Positions 40,424 through 51,407 of a stretch of 64,000 nt of DNA are shown here, one piece after another. Below the pieces are notes generated by a model. That model saw only the letters and a program-made list of their open reading frames with translations. It was not told the origin of the DNA and made no database searches. Location of the stretch: the NCBI RefSeq assembly GCF_000016905.1, contig NC_009616.1:124001-188000 (forward strand), given 5' to 3'. This DNA comes from Thermosipho melanesiensis BI429. Its GTDB lineage: Bacteria; Thermotogota; Thermotogae; Thermotogales; Fervidobacteriaceae. The translations under genes and the position numbers were made by a program. Within the stretch, counting starts at the first letter, position 1, and each line of letters begins with the position of its first letter.

Positions 40424-40955
40424 ATGAAAACTCCTTTACAAATACTTCATGAACATAACTATCTATATTCACAATCCTTATTTCATCTAGACAACGTTCT
40501 TTGCTGGTAAACTTGCTAATTACTTCTTTAAAAATCTTAGCGCATCTATCTACTGGAAAACCAAAAATACCACTACTTATAGCTGGAAAGGCTATGGTTT
40601 TGATATTTAGTTTACATGCTGTTTTTAAACTATTCCATATTGCACTCCTTAGTTTTTCCTCTTCATTATTTTCTCCTCCACGCCATACCGGACCAACAGC
40701 ATGTATTATATACTTTGCATTTAAATTACCGGCAGTTGTTACCGTAACACCGCCCGTAGGAACTGGCCCATGTTTTTGTACGTATTCATCACTTTCTTCT
40801 TGAATGATATATCCTCCTTTTTTCAAAATTGCTCCTGCTACACCGCCACCATGTTTCAAACTTGAATTTGCAGCATTTACAATTGCATCAACATGTTGTT
40901 CTGTGATATCATCATTTATCAATCTTACAGTCACATTATTAATCTTTATTTCCAT
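40416..40955 (-). CDS. Macro-domain ADP-ribose-binding protein (deacetylase/hydrolase type)
   Basis: This 179-residue stand-alone macro domain contains IVNAANSSLKHGGGVAGAI with the ADP-ribose-contacting Asn and the Gly-rich loop, AKYIIHAVGPVW, and the phosphate-binding 'AFPAISSGIFGFP'. Bacterial members of this MacroD/YmdB group hydrolyse O-acetyl-ADP-ribose, remove ADP-ribose from proteins, or act on ADP-ribose-1''-phosphate. Its start overlaps rarA by 17 bases. Placement in an operon with uracil-DNA glycosylase and rarA hints at a link to genome maintenance or tRNA/NAD metabolism (inference). Confidence 0.95.
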   Translation of the reverse strand: MEIKINNVTVRLINDDITEQHVDAIVNAANSSLKHGGGVAGAILKKGGYIIQEESDEYVQKHGPVPTGGVTVTTAGNLNAKYIIHAVGPVWRGGENNEEEKLRSAIWNSLKTACKLNIKTIAFPAISSGIFGFPVDRCAKIFKEVISKFTSKERCLDEIRIVNIDSYVHEVFVKEFSCD

Positions 40956-42171
40956 ACTCCTTCACCCCTTCCCACAATTTTTCCAAAATTTCCTTTAATC
41001 TTTTTTCTTTACCAATCTCTTTTGGAATGTAAAACACTTTATCTGAAATTCCTTTTGGAAGGTAACTTTTTTTCAAAAAACCACCATAATGATGTGGATT
41101 TTTGTATCCACTATCTTTTACATTTAGTAAATTGAAAGGTACAGACAAATTCATCGTCTCTCTTGCAGATTCGATTGCTTTTGAAATAGCTAAAGTAGAT
41201 GAATTGCTCTTTGGTGCTAATGACAAGTATATAACACATTCAGAAAGGTTTAAAACACACTCTGGAAGTCCAACCAGTTCCACTGCTTGTGCTGTTGCAA
41301 TTGCTATTAAAATTGCCATGGGATCCGCAAGTCCTACATCCTCACTAGCCAAAATCGCCAACCTTCTTGCAATAAATCTTGGATCTTCTCCCACTTCTAA
41401 CATTCTTGCCATATAGTACAACGCCGCGTCGGGATCACTTCCCCTAATGCTTTTTATAAAAGCAGATGCAAGTTCATAATGTTCTTTGCTAGTATAAACC
41501 ATTTTCACTTCGCCACCGTATAATGTAACGATTTCATCGTCAACTATTTCTTTACCAAGTGCTTTTGCCATATCACTCAACACATCGTAAATATTTATTG
41601 CAAATCTTGCATCACCATCTGAAATCCTTGTAATAAAATCCATAACACTTTCCATTACATCTATGTTTTTTACTGAAATTGCCCTCTCTAAAAGCTTTTT
41701 TATTTCAAAAACCTTTAACTTTTTAAAAGCAATAACCTTTATCCTTGACAACAACGCGGGATTTATCATCTTAAAGGGATTTTCAGTGGTTGCACCAATA
41801 AATATATAATCTCCCCGTTCTATTCCGGGGAGAAATATATCCTGTTGTTTTTTATTAAACCTATGAATTTCATCAACAAAAATCAGCATCTTTTTTAATC
41901 CCTTTACTTTTTGCGCATAATCTAATACCTTTTTCACATCAATTGTAGAAGTCACAGCAGCGTTAAAATGATAAATTTCAAAATCTGTCTTTTTCCTTAT
42001 TATCTCCAAAGTAGAAGTTTTCCCACAACCAGGTGGTCCATAAAATACTGCAGAAAATAAATTTCCACTCTCAATAGCTAGCCTTATCAATCCTTTTTCA
42101 CCAAACAAATGTTCCTGACCAATAAACTCTTCAAAACCCTTAGGTCTTAAAATTTCGCTTAAACCACTCAA
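40939..42171 (-). CDS. rarA: Replication-associated recombination protein A (RarA/MgsA) AAA+ ATPase
   Basis: This 410-residue clamp-loader-like ATPase has LRPKGFEEFIGQEHL near the N-terminus, Walker A FYGPPGCGKTST, Walker B IFVDEIHRFNKKQQD and sensor GATTENP. The C-terminal tetramerisation region ends with HHYGGFLKKSYLP. RarA acts at stalled forks and single-strand ends. The start is TTG at 42171, inside the end of the epimerase gene (32-base overlap), with GAGG 7 bases ahead. Motifs and length are standard. It is followed by the macro-domain gene. Confidence 0.96.
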   Translation of the reverse strand: MSGLSEILRPKGFEEFIGQEHLFGEKGLIRLAIESGNLFSAVFYGPPGCGKTSTLEIIRKKTDFEIYHFNAAVTSTIDVKKVLDYAQKVKGLKKMLIFVDEIHRFNKKQQDIFLPGIERGDYIFIGATTENPFKMINPALLSRIKVIAFKKLKVFEIKKLLERAISVKNIDVMESVMDFITRISDGDARFAINIYDVLSDMAKALGKEIVDDEIVTLYGGEVKMVYTSKEHYELASAFIKSIRGSDPDAALYYMARMLEVGEDPRFIARRLAILASEDVGLADPMAILIAIATAQAVELVGLPECVLNLSECVIYLSLAPKSNSSTLAISKAIESARETMNLSVPFNLLNVKDSGYKNPHHYGGFLKKSYLPKGISDKVFYIPKEIGKEKRLKEILEKLWEGVKEYGNKD

Positions 42172-47071: not shown

Positions 47072-47482
47072 GTGTCGTTTCTACTCTTTTCTATTGCAAC
47101 ATCTATCATACTATTTTTTTTCACAAAATCTTACATATTCTTTTCAATTATATTCCTTGGATTGTACTATCTAAAAAGAGACAATACAAAATTACAAAGC
47201 TTATTAAGTTTAACCTTTGTTTTGATGATTGCACTTTCTTTCTTTTCAACAATCCGTGGGTACAATCCATCTGGTTTACTTTTTCTATTAATTGCAACAT
47301 TTTCATCGATAATATATGATATACTTAAAAAGCCTATGTGGAGTTTACCTTTTTTTGCATTTCTTGGAATAGGTATTTCAATGATTGGGACCATAAAATA
47401 TGGAAACCTTGGCTATTTATTTGGATTTTTAATAATTCCCATATTTTTAAGAGAATTCAAGAAAAGGGGTGAAAAAAATTGA
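47072..47482 (+). CDS. Small polytopic membrane protein, unknown function
   Basis: The 136-residue product has five predicted membrane helices and short loops; I recognise no family. The start is GTG at 47072, with GGAGGTG 5 bases ahead. Its stop overlaps the TTG start of glmU by 4 bases, so it is the first gene of the glmU-prs-rplY-pth operon. A role in cell-envelope precursor supply is only guessed from that position. Helices near 5-25, 28-45, 47-62, 67-85 and 92-125 are visible as runs of Leu, Ile and Phe. Confidence 0.8.
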   Translation: MSFLLFSIATSIILFFFTKSYIFFSIIFLGLYYLKRDNTKLQSLLSLTFVLMIALSFFSTIRGYNPSGLLFLLIATFSSIIYDILKKPMWSLPFFAFLGIGISMIGTIKYGNLGYLFGFLIIPIFLREFKKRGEKN

Positions 47483-48831
47483 AAACCCTAATTTTGGCTG
47501 CGGGTCTTGGCAAAAGAATGAATTCTAAATATCCAAAAGTAATACATAAAATTTTCAACAAACCAATGATTAACTGGGTAATTGAAACTGCAAAAAACTT
47601 TGGTAAAGTAGCAGTTGTTTTAGGACATAAATACGAACTTGTTAAAAAGGTCATACCTGAAGACGTTGAAATATACTTGCAAAACCAACAATTAGGTACT
47701 GCACATGCAGTCATGTCTGCCATAGAATTTGTATCTCCAAATGATAATTTGTTAATTCTTTATGGCGATGTTCCTTTTATTTCACATGAAACATTAAAAA
47801 GACTTGAAAAAGAGCACGTAAAAAGTAACAGTGATGTTACTATACTTACCTCTATATTGGAAAATCCTACCGGTTATGGTAGGATTGTTAGAGATGGCAA
47901 AATAAGGATAATAGAAGATAAAGATGCAACTGAAGAAGTTAAAAAAATAAAAGAAATAAATACAGGGATATACATTATTAAAGGAAACTTTTTAATTGAA
48001 AATATAAATAAGATAGAGAATAATAACACACAGAAAGAATATTATTTAACGGATATATTAAAATTTACAGATAACATCTCAACAGTTACTACGAACGATG
48101 TCGACGAAATTACTGGTGTAAACAACAGAATTCAACTTGCAAATTTGGAAAAAAAGATAAGAAGGAAAATAAATGAAAAATTAATGAACCAAGGGGTAAG
48201 GATAATTGACCCTAATGCTGTTTATATAGACCCACAAGTAAAAATAGGGAGAGACACTTTGATCTACCCGTTTACTTTCATTGAAGGTGAAACAGAAATT
48301 GGGGAAGATTGTGTAATTGGACCTTTGACACGAATAAAAGAGTCTAAAATAGGGAATAAAGTTACAATAAACAGATCAGAAGTGGAAAAATCTGTGATAG
48401 AAGATAATGTATCAGTAGGTCCATTTGCAAGATTACGTGAAGGAACGACATTAGATGAAAATGTAAAAATTGGAAACTTTGTAGAAACAAAAAAGTCAAG
48501 TATAGGAAAAAATAGCAAAGCACAACATCTAACATACTTAGGAGATGCTACAATTGGAAATAACGTAAATATAGGAGCGGGAACAATTACTTGTAATTAT
48601 GATGGGCAAACCAAGCATCCGACTTACATTGAAGACAACGCGTTTATTGGAAGCAACAACTCACTTGTTGCACCTGTAAAGATAGGTAAAAATGCAATCA
48701 CTGCTGCTGGTTCAACCATTACAAACAACGTACCGGAAAATAGTCTTGCAATAGCAAGACAAAAACAAATTAACAAAGAAAATTGGGTTTTAAGAAAAGG
48801 GGGCCAAAAAAATGCAAATAACAAAAAATGA
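47479..48831 (+). CDS. glmU: Bifunctional GlcNAc-1-P uridyltransferase / GlcN-1-P acetyltransferase GlmU
   Basis: This 450-residue enzyme has the pyrophosphorylase signature LILAAGLGKRMNSKYPKV, uridine-binding YGDVPFI, and a C-terminal left-handed beta-helix of hexapeptide repeats. The acetyltransferase site residues lie in KAQHLTYLGDATIG and GAGTITCNYDG. It makes UDP-GlcNAc for peptidoglycan and surface glycans. The start is TTG at 47479, preceded by AGGGGTGA and overlapping the membrane protein stop. Its 3' end overlaps prs by 20 bases. All hallmarks are intact. Confidence 0.97.
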   Translation: MKTLILAAGLGKRMNSKYPKVIHKIFNKPMINWVIETAKNFGKVAVVLGHKYELVKKVIPEDVEIYLQNQQLGTAHAVMSAIEFVSPNDNLLILYGDVPFISHETLKRLEKEHVKSNSDVTILTSILENPTGYGRIVRDGKIRIIEDKDATEEVKKIKEINTGIYIIKGNFLIENINKIENNNTQKEYYLTDILKFTDNISTVTTNDVDEITGVNNRIQLANLEKKIRRKINEKLMNQGVRIIDPNAVYIDPQVKIGRDTLIYPFTFIEGETEIGEDCVIGPLTRIKESKIGNKVTINRSEVEKSVIEDNVSVGPFARLREGTTLDENVKIGNFVETKKSSIGKNSKAQHLTYLGDATIGNNVNIGAGTITCNYDGQTKHPTYIEDNAFIGSNNSLVAPVKIGKNAITAAGSTITNNVPENSLAIARQKQINKENWVLRKGGQKNANNKK

Positions 48832-49762
48832 GATGAAAATATTCTCAGGAAATGCCAATAAAGAACTTGCAATAAAGGTATCGGAATATATCGGTACACG
48901 CCTTGCCAATTGTGAAGTTGGAAGATTTGCAGACGGTGAAATAAACGTAAAGATTGGTGAAACAGTTAGAGGACACGATACTTTTATCGTTCAACCAACT
49001 TGTCCCCCTGTAAACGAAAATCTAATGGAATTGTTAATAATGATAGATGCACTAAAACGCGCATCGGCAAACAGTATAGCGGTGGTTATACCATACTATG
49101 GATATGCAAGACAGGACAGAAAAGCCAAAGGACGTGATCCTATAACTGCAAAGTTAGTAGCAAATTTATTAACCACTGCTGGAGCTACAAGAGTTATGAC
49201 TGTTGATTTGCACTCTGAACAGATACAAGGATTTTTTGATATACCACTTGATAATTTATGGAGTTTCCCTATATTTGCAAAACAATTGAAAAGGGATAAA
49301 ATAGTAGATGATGAATATGTAATTGTATCACCAGATGTTGGTGGTGTAAAAAGAGCAAGACAATTTGCTGAAAGATTAGGCGGACCTCTTGCAATATTGG
49401 ACAAAAGGAGGCCAAAGGATAATGAAGCAGAGATTTTGAATATAATAGGAGATGTAAAAGATAAAACGGCAATTATTGTGGACGATATTGCGGATACAGC
49501 ACGTTCTCTTGTTAAAGCAGCAAAGGCTATAAAAGAGAATGGTGCAAGAAGGGTAATTGCTTGTATCACACATCCCGTACTTTCTGATGGTGCAATTGAA
49601 AGAATTCAAAATTCAGAAATTGAAAAAATATATATTTCCGATTCGATCAGTCATAACAATCTACCAGATAAATTTTCCGTAGTATCACTTGCACCACTGC
49701 TTGGTGAAGCTATTATGAGGGTGAGAAAAAACTTATCTGTAAGTATACTATTTAGGCAATAA
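48812..49762 (+). CDS. prs: Ribose-phosphate pyrophosphokinase
   Basis: The 316-residue PRPP synthase has the family hallmarks: [19 protein letters not shown], the flexible-loop region [17 protein letters not shown], metal-site [11 protein letters not shown], and the PRPP-binding loop [11 protein letters not shown]. It supplies PRPP for nucleotide, His and NAD synthesis. The start overlaps glmU by 20 bases, with AAGGGGG ahead of it. It precedes rplY by 34 bases. The glmU-prs-rplY-pth order is common in Gram-positive relatives and supports one operon. Confidence 0.98.
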
Positions 49763-49796
49763 TAAACCCATAAAAATAAAAAGAGGAGGTTTTAGT

Positions 49797-50447
49797 ATGG
49801 CACAACACAAGCTAGAGGCCCTGACGAGAAACGTTGTTGGAAAAAAAAGGGCTGTTAGAAGATTGAGAAAACAAGGACTTATACCCGGTGTAGTTTATGG
49901 GCCTGATATTGAACCACTTTCTATTTCAATTAAAAAGTCCAATTTAATCAAGCTTTTATACGAAGTAACCGAAGCAAGCATTATTTCACTTTCCGTTAAA
50001 GATGAAACAGGAAATGAGGTATTCTCTCACGATGTATTCATTAAAAACATTCAATACGATAAATTAACAGATGAAGTAAAACATATTGATTTCTACGCAC
50101 CTGAAAAAGGTCATACTATGAATATCAATATACCACTTGAATTTATTGGAAAACCAAAAGGCGTAGAAAAGGGTGGTATTGTTGAAATTATTCACCATGA
50201 ACTCCCCGTTGAAACACTTCCTTCTGTTATTGTAGAGAAGCTAGAGATAGATATTAGTAATCTAGATCTTGGTGAATCATTCCACGTATCTGATTTAAAA
50301 CTCCCAACAGGAATGACTGCAGAGCTTCCAGAAAACGAACCATTGGTAACTATAGCAATTCCAAGAGGTATTGAAGTAGAAGAAACAACAAGTGAAGAGG
50401 AAGTTGAACCAGAAGTAATAGAAAAAGGTAAAAAGGAGGAAGAATAA
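49797..50447 (+). CDS. rplY: Ribosomal protein bL25, CTC/TL5 type
   Basis: The 216-residue protein has an N-terminal 5S-rRNA-binding L25 domain (about 1-95: [21 protein letters not shown], then HVDFY-like KHIDFYAP) and a C-terminal beta-rich CTC domain (about 100-185, with [18 protein letters not shown]). A highly acidic tail ([14 protein letters not shown]) follows. It stabilises 5S rRNA in the large subunit, and the long form is usual in stress-adapted and thermophilic bacteria. GAGGAGG-type sequence precedes the ATG. Its stop lies one base before the proposed AUA start of pth, and its last codons contain the ribosome site for pth. Confidence 0.97.
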
Positions 50448-50448
50448 A

Positions 50449-50985
50449 ATAATATTAGTTGTTGGTCTTGGAAACCCTGGTCCACGTTATGCCTTTACAA
50501 GGCATAACGTGGGTTTTATGTTTTTAGACAGAATAGCAAATAATTGGAGAAAGAAATACAATTATGAATTTTCAATAAAAGAAAATCTTTTTTTAGTAAA
50601 ACCGCTAACATACATGAATTTAAGTGGTGAAATATTTAATTACATAAATCCCAAAGATTTTGGTGATATAATAGTAGTGTACGATGACGTAAGTTTACCA
50701 CTTGGAAAAATAAGGATTAGAAAAAAAGGCTCACATGGTGGTCATAAGGGAGTTAAGTCAATAATCTCGCATCTTGGGACTGATTTTAATAGAATTAGGA
50801 TAGGAATAGGTCCTCTACCTGATAATGAAGATTTGGTAAATTTCGTACTGGGAGAATTTTCAAATAGGGAACTCGAAATAGTAAACAAAGCTTTAAACTT
50901 ATCATATGAAGCTTTAAAAACTATTGTTAATGAAGGGATTGACAAAGCAATGAGCCTCTTTAATGCAAAAGAGGTGGAAAGATGA
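50449..50985 (+). CDS. pth: Peptidyl-tRNA hydrolase with apparent AUA start codon
   Basis: The product has all Pth landmarks: [11 protein letters not shown] with catalytic Asn9, RHNVGFMFL with catalytic His19, [20 protein letters not shown] with the catalytic Asp, and [12 protein letters not shown]. It recycles peptidyl-tRNA. These N-terminal residues are encoded upstream of any ATG or GTG. In this frame the preceding stop is at 50419-50421, and no ATG, GTG or TTG occurs before 50509. AUA at 50449 gives (M)ILVVGLGNP, the normal spacing (B. subtilis Pth also begins M, four residues, GLGNP), with GGAGG 9 bases ahead. A perfect hairpin lies at 50482-50512. The stop overlaps the next gene (ATGA). 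Confidence 0.88.
50482..50512 (+). promoter_or_regulatory. Perfect 12-bp hairpin inside the pth coding start
   Basis: CCACGTTATGCC (50482-50493) and GGCATAACGTGG (50501-50512) pair completely across a 7-base loop. The structure begins 33 bases after the AUA start and is followed by GTTTTATGTTTTT. It resembles an intrinsic terminator or attenuator, or a translation-modulating hairpin, within codons 12-22 of pth. Confidence 0.85.
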
Positions 50986-51407
50986 AAAAGTGCAGTAGAT
51001 GTGGAAAAAACGCGGATATATTTCTAGTGGTAGATGTAGATATTGCAAAAAAGGAAATTGTACTTTGCAAAAGGTGCCTTAAAGAAACCCTGAAATTTGA
51101 TACTGTAAGATTTACAAAAGCAGGTGTTGAACTGCTTTCAGCTCATATGGAATTTGCAGAAGAAATAACTTTAAATTCCACAAGATTTATTGCAAATAAC
51201 CTAGAAATTCTCACATTAATGCCACTTGCCGTTCAAAGTGCACTTTTTGAACATGATTCATTTACAAAAAAAAGAATGATAAATGACATTCAAAAAAGAC
51301 AGGTATACTTCTTAAAACAAAAACTTATAAAAGCATTGGAAAAGGAACAATATGATATAGCTAAAAAGATAAAAGAACAGATTGATAATTTAGAAAAACA
51401 AAAGTAA
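50982..51407 (+). CDS. McsA-like protein: two CxxC zinc motifs plus UvrB/UvrC-type C-terminus
   Basis: The 141-residue product has two CxxC pairs near its N-terminus (CSRCGK and CKRC, residues 4-33), likely a treble-clef-type zinc site. The central helical part is unassigned. The C-terminal helix pair (about 112-140, [21 protein letters not shown]) resembles the UVR motif of UvrB/UvrC and McsA. In Firmicutes McsA activates the arginine kinase McsB and controls CtsR, but no mcsB or clpC is nearby, so the function is open. It overlaps pth by 4 bases and is the last gene before a new promoter at 51409. Confidence 0.8.

Follow-up and report, generated by a model that had tools for sequence, protein, structure and literature searches.

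An RNA hairpin encoded in the early codons of pth is a probable transcription terminator at the rplY-pth boundary in Thermotogota

In the 64,000-nucleotide stretch of Thermosipho melanesiensis BI429 DNA analyzed here (the window), early codons of pth encode an RNA hairpin followed by a U-rich tail. The two together are probably an intrinsic terminator or attenuator that would end a large share of glmU-prs-rplY transcripts, with pth expressed via read-through. Observed in genome sequences were the hairpin itself, how widely it is conserved, the tail that follows it, and the elements that take its place in other lineages.

A first-pass annotation of the window had described a perfect 12-bp hairpin in the first pth codons, and a search of the window returned it at exactly the same coordinates (50482-50512, plus strand), with the arms reading CCACGTTATGCC-TTTACAA-GGCATAACGTGG. 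The stem proved longer than stated: the full form, CCACGTTATGCCTT / AAGGCATAACGTGG, has 14 contiguous pairs and a UAC loop, and is lengthened by a U-G wobble (50481/50513). The stem energy is -21.4 kcal/mol at 37 °C and -7.8 kcal/mol at 75 °C, and the 141-nt fold around the hairpin has a z of -4.05. Each arm is present as a single copy in the 1.92-Mb genome, the 64-kb window has no second site of this hairpin type, and 100 shuffles gave none at all. The hairpin starts 35 nt past the rplY stop, within pth codons ~12-22, and sits inside the coding sequence of the Pth motif; the stem is in frame, 30-35 nt 3' of the pth start, and leaves both the Shine-Dalgarno (SD) sequence and the start codon of pth outside (Table 1). 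The tail, G-TTTT-ATG-TTTTT (GTTTTATGTTTTT), encodes the G-F-M-F codons. On the reverse strand the flank of the hairpin is CCAGGGTTTCC, with no T tail, so that a terminator can be read on the plus strand only. No covariance model of Rfam 15 matched positions 49700-51100 at up to E = 1.

Table 1. Features around the rplY-pth boundary (positions of the window).
Feature	Coordinates	Strand	Remarks
glmU	47479..48831	+	ORF; named from sequence content; upstream, in the same gene run
prs (ribose-phosphate pyrophosphokinase)	48812..49762	+	ORF; named from sequence content
rplY (ribosomal protein L25/CTC)	49797..50447	+	ORF; stop TAA 50445-50447
AGGAGG Shine-Dalgarno for pth	50434..50439	+	within rplY 3' end; read from sequence
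Probable non-canonical pth start ATA	50449..50451	+	inferred
pth, peptidyl-tRNA hydrolase	50449..50985	+	TIGR00447, E 1.9e-50
Hairpin 5' arm	50482..50495	+	codons P-R-Y-A and two bases of F
Apical loop UAC	50496..50498	+	apical part differs among lineages
Hairpin 3' arm	50499..50512	+	R-H-N-V and one base of G
U-rich tail GTTTTATGTTTTT	50513..50525	+	synonymous T excess across relatives
Next gene, cysteine-rich, McsA-like by eye	50982..51407	+	ORF; 4-nt overlap with pth

Wherever a Thermotogota locus extends far enough upstream, rplY lies directly 5' of pth, and a dependence of the hairpin on rplY adjacency was rejected on this ground. Where the hairpin is present the two genes either overlap or are almost contiguous, and the distance from the rplY stop to the stem end is 60-73 nt. 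The non-standard start noted in the first-pass annotation stands: no ATG, GTG or TTG was found 5' of the GLGNPG codons in the window pth, and the best candidate is the ATA at 50449, 9 nt after AGGAGG. All eight Thermosipho-type genomes (the window and L004-L010) have ATA (six) or ATT (two) at the start site, with AGGAGG kept 9-10 nt upstream and no ATG, GTG or TTG nearby; as read from sequence, the start codon of Thermosipho-type pth is apparently AUA or AUU, a conserved non-canonical start in an essential gene. The L011 locus has TTG at this position. A +1 frameshift fusing rplY to pth, weighed in view of the missing standard start in Thermosipho-type pth, was discarded, as no slippery codon was seen and relatives have ATG, GTG or TTG. 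In one genome of the same genus (L004, 1500-1560) the Pth motif reads GLGNSG and not GLGNPG, which is either real or an assembly error.

To follow the hairpin across the class, pth was collected from ~100 Thermotogota genomes, giving 92 distinct loci; these share ancestry, and counts over them are not independent. With a hairpin locus defined by an unbroken run of 9 or more pairs in the same register, the hairpin is kept in 58 of the 92, which span Thermosipho-, Thermotoga-, Pseudothermotoga-, Petrotoga/Marinitoga- and Kosmotoga-type families (the genus-type labels of relatives are partly inferred). Two further loci can be added to these, L173 with one mismatch and L004 with a perfect form that the motif search missed. 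Across the 58 loci the stem codons are nearly invariant in identity, i.e., Arg is CGT (57/57), Tyr TAT (58/58), His CAT (58/58) and Val GTG (57/57), and Pro is encoded only by CCA or CCG, the two codons able to pair. In this genome CGT is a rare Arg codon (157 in sampled genes, vs 1977 AGA). Outside the stem, normalized codon entropy in pth is mostly 0.6-1.0, and the same residues elsewhere in the protein vary freely in codon (Tyr75 29/28, His96 29/29). In hairpin-less loci there is no such constancy in the corresponding Tyr, His and Val codons, and most of these loci have other residues in place of Pro-Arg; from this relaxation, the RNA appears to hold the protein residues Pro-Arg as well as the codons. 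Of 54 pth genes from other phyla, none has a stem of at least 9 pairs in this register.

The formula of the terminator score D is not calibrated for thermophile RNA polymerase, and the argument rests on shuffles and not on absolute D. D exceeds 10 in 46 of the 58 hairpin loci, vs 1.4% of synonymous shuffles, and in 1 of the 54 pth genes outside Thermotogota. The window itself scores 14.7, below its close relatives; Petrotoga-type tails give a D of only 0-7, and L131, L132 and L161 fall below zero. Codons of the tail contain 412 T against a synonymous expectation of 370 +/- 6 (z 6.9, a value that relatedness makes optimistic). The Phe codon and the +13 codon, both outside the stem, contribute to this excess, which is little or none in control codons (about zero or below) and in hairpin-less loci. 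Same-strand sites with D > 10 in the 64 kb are nearly all intergenic. Within 279 kb of coding DNA of this genome, for which 13 20-kb stretches were used, 15 sense sites have a D above 10; the offsets of several are near zero, suggesting miscalled gene starts. The sole other sense intragenic site with D > 10 in the window (41810-41833, minus strand) reads TCTCCCC...GGGGAGA followed by TTATATATTT, ~340 nt into the ORF 40939-42171.

Loss of the hairpin was accompanied by another terminator-like element in two clades. Beside Thermosipho stands a hairpin-less, Fervidobacterium-like clade of nine loci, amounting to one change on the tree, in which rplY and pth are separated by 63-159 nt. Within this gap is a CCCCC/GGGGG-type hairpin followed by a run of T; its D is +28 to +53 and its stem ends 39-92 nt past the rplY stop. 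The second hairpin-less clade, also one change, comprises six loci (L022, L025, L029, L031, L121 and L125) and has an unrelated intragenic hairpin, GCTCCCC-loop-GGGGAGC with a T-rich tail, ~85 nt after the GLGNPG codons into pth. That hairpin encodes CSPWxGER or CSPFxGER, and its D of +15 to +41 is above every synonymous shuffle. The replacement evidence consists of these two strong clade-level events; weaker terminator candidates lie elsewhere in early pth in groups f5 and g11 and in one f8 locus, and about ten loci (f4, f7, part of f5, f8) show no clear terminator near the rplY-pth boundary. The proposal in the first-pass annotation that the glmU-prs-rplY transcript is attenuated is clearly favored by the selection on the U tail together with the intergenic and displaced replacement terminators.

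Two further loci were observed in this survey. L126 (Pseudothermotoga-type, g11) has lost the usual hairpin and carries CCACGTTACC just past the rplY stop, and a GGCC...GGCC hairpin spans its GLGNPG codons. L044, an Acidobacteria MAG, has in early pth a strong independent hairpin, complete with a T tail, in a shifted register on the same Pth motif (CCGGCGTTATGTACGAG...CTCGACATAACGTCGG TTTTATG, D 31), the sole such case among the 54 other-phylum pth genes.

These results bear on two other functions that an RNA hairpin here could serve. One, of which the first-pass annotation had also named translational control of pth, is control of pth translation or ribosome movement, by slow early elongation or by limited re-initiation after rplY, in place of transcription end. 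The distance of the stem from the start codon would suit such a role, and the conserved AUA/AUU start in Thermosipho-type pth points to tight translational control; we nevertheless consider it unlikely, since it leaves unexplained both the synonymous T excess after the stem and the appearance of a replacing intergenic terminator and a relocated GC-rich hairpin with a T tail, and since neither the SD nor the start codon is in the stem. The other is an element of RNA processing or stability, i.e., a duplex cut by RNase or a 3' barrier protecting rplY mRNA after downstream cleavage. This is rather improbable: no U tail is required for a processing hairpin, yet a T excess marks the tail, and the elements that replace the hairpin in two clades are typical terminators. 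In its favor are a long perfect stem just 3' of a ribosomal protein gene and the conservation of the base-proximal 10 pairs.

Pairing at synonymous sites in relatives, the check proposed with the first-pass annotation, was upheld strongly. In a covariation set of 33 distinct sequences 92.9% of cells pair, and the outer 10 pairs are kept in nearly all of the 58 loci. Four stem pairs have substitutions in both partners. Covariation scored 0.166, compared to 0.130 +/- 0.009 in shuffled sets (0/500 as high) and 0.036-0.083 with slid partners. The clear single case is L011 (CCACATTATGCC / GGCATAATGTGG), in which Arg becomes His with the pair retained; L007 has the G-U version of the same pair. Departures from Watson-Crick pairing in the outer ten pairs are 13 G-U, 0 A-C and 1 other, which favors an RNA of mRNA sense over a DNA palindrome. 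A DNA palindrome with 12-bp arms and a 7-bp spacer, recognized by a protein or recombinase, would account for a near-perfect dyad that has one copy per genome and a nearly frozen sequence. No sequence-specific reader is needed for that, because the protein fixes RHNVG and pairing then leaves the 5' arm with next to no freedom, so that the frozen bases follow from protein and pairing constraints; unconstrained stem positions do vary, yet pair, and unrelated hairpins occur at other places in other clades. Binding as DNA is thus very improbable. Two other identities were rejected: a mobile palindrome (each genome has a single copy, and the protein carries no insertion) and a mimic of a tRNA minihelix for Pth binding (12 bp and a 7-nt loop), for which the loop varies and is not T-loop-like. 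Stems of Kosmotoga/Marinitoga type have small stability at 75-80 °C, and these organisms may grow cooler.

Chance could in principle start from the protein itself. The Y...HN residues of the Pth motif Y..TRHN have built-in complementarity, which makes an 8-bp stem in the first 60 codons easy to obtain (6.6% of synonymous draws with the protein fixed and genome codon usage), and the excess therefore resides in the longer stem: a perfect stem of at least 12 bp arose in 4 of 100,000 such draws, which bears out the earlier judgment that the hairpin was unlikely by chance. A lucky hairpin kept by this predisposition and common ancestry has next to no probability, and is already contradicted by the covariation, by a codon freeze confined to the stem across class-level divergence, and by its absence from this register in other phyla; the hairpin is not chance.

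For termination in vivo, its efficiency and its control by ribosomes, we infer the following course from sequence. RNA polymerase leaving rplY would form the hairpin and U tract and would often stop ~65 nt past the rplY stop, giving glmU-prs-rplY mRNA a short 3' end, and pth and the genes behind it would be expressed by read-through. Transcription of the next gene (McsA-like by eye) that derives from upstream would likewise cross the hairpin. The terminator would lie inside pth coding sequence because pth starts 1-2 nt after rplY, and selection would have fixed the codons (and Pro-Arg), letting the same bases specify protein and terminator alike. A ribosome halted at the end of rplY is not expected to extend as far as the stem; one starting pth would soon cover the 5' arm and favor read-through, and initiation on pth would thus probably set the read-through level. 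The AUA/AUU start of Thermosipho-type pth would weaken initiation, which appears weak by design. A search for an antiterminator, pairing the 5' arm with the 124 nt upstream, gave a mean longest complementary run of 5.8 vs 6.8 in shuffles. It is also conceivable, if doubtful, that the terminator makes pth self-regulating, as a class-wide feedback loop on peptidyl-tRNA turnover within the coding sequence. Transcripts ending inside pth without a stop codon would then yield short non-stop peptidyl-tRNAs, and Pth activity or the supply of free tRNA, via the speed of ribosome entry on the earliest pth codons, would decide between termination and read-through.

Intragenic and ribosome-controlled terminators are already known. 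The open-access literature searched contained no class-wide terminator that keeps codons and residues of an essential gene fixed and changes its place between lineages, and nothing relevant on pth/rplY termination in Thermotoga. The locus is an unusually clear case in which a regulatory RNA constrains a protein, with codons and the Pro-Arg before the catalytic motif apparently held across Thermotogota. This probable terminator has switched between coding and intergenic sites yet has remained close to one operon boundary, and such movement makes it testable whether terminators in compact operons are concealed within the following gene. Should the terminator be under the control of ribosomes on pth, read-through would report on translation itself.

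Judged by its sequence, the pth hairpin would classify as an intrinsic (Rho-independent) terminator, having a G+C-rich stem-loop, a U tract and a score above background. It resembles known intrinsic terminators in its stable stem-loop with a U-rich tail, its one-directional character and its location 60-73 nt past the upstream stop, and differs in being encoded in codons of the next gene, where stem and tail also spell protein. Transcription units of T. maritima have been mapped with RNA-seq and TransTermHP (PMC3636130). With arfA and brfA it shares a terminator, here predicted in silico, within the ORF of a gene for peptidyl-tRNA release or ribosome rescue, and transcripts that would end without a stop codon; this genome also encodes tmRNA (RF00023, E 9.6e-92). 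In brfA the terminator sits close to the 3' end, at ~codon 62 of 71, and the shortened protein is functional (PMC6881298). The pth terminator, in contrast, is at codons ~12-22 of 179, and the truncated product cannot be an active Pth, which places the hairpin outside the arfA/brfA class. A translating ribosome can block a terminator hairpin in a translated region, as in the pyrL leader, narY and rsxC (PMC5021804). The likeness to such attenuation is that the pth terminator lies within a translated ORF, where the location of a ribosome could decide; the difference is that the leader would be the structural gene's own start, and no competing antiterminator was found in the upstream search. Partial terminators also follow ribosomal protein genes, e.g., the intergenic rplL-rpoB attenuator of E. 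coli. The pth hairpin would similarly lower expression behind a ribosomal protein gene, but from within the gene that follows; the exception is the Fervidobacterium-like clade with its intergenic replacement.
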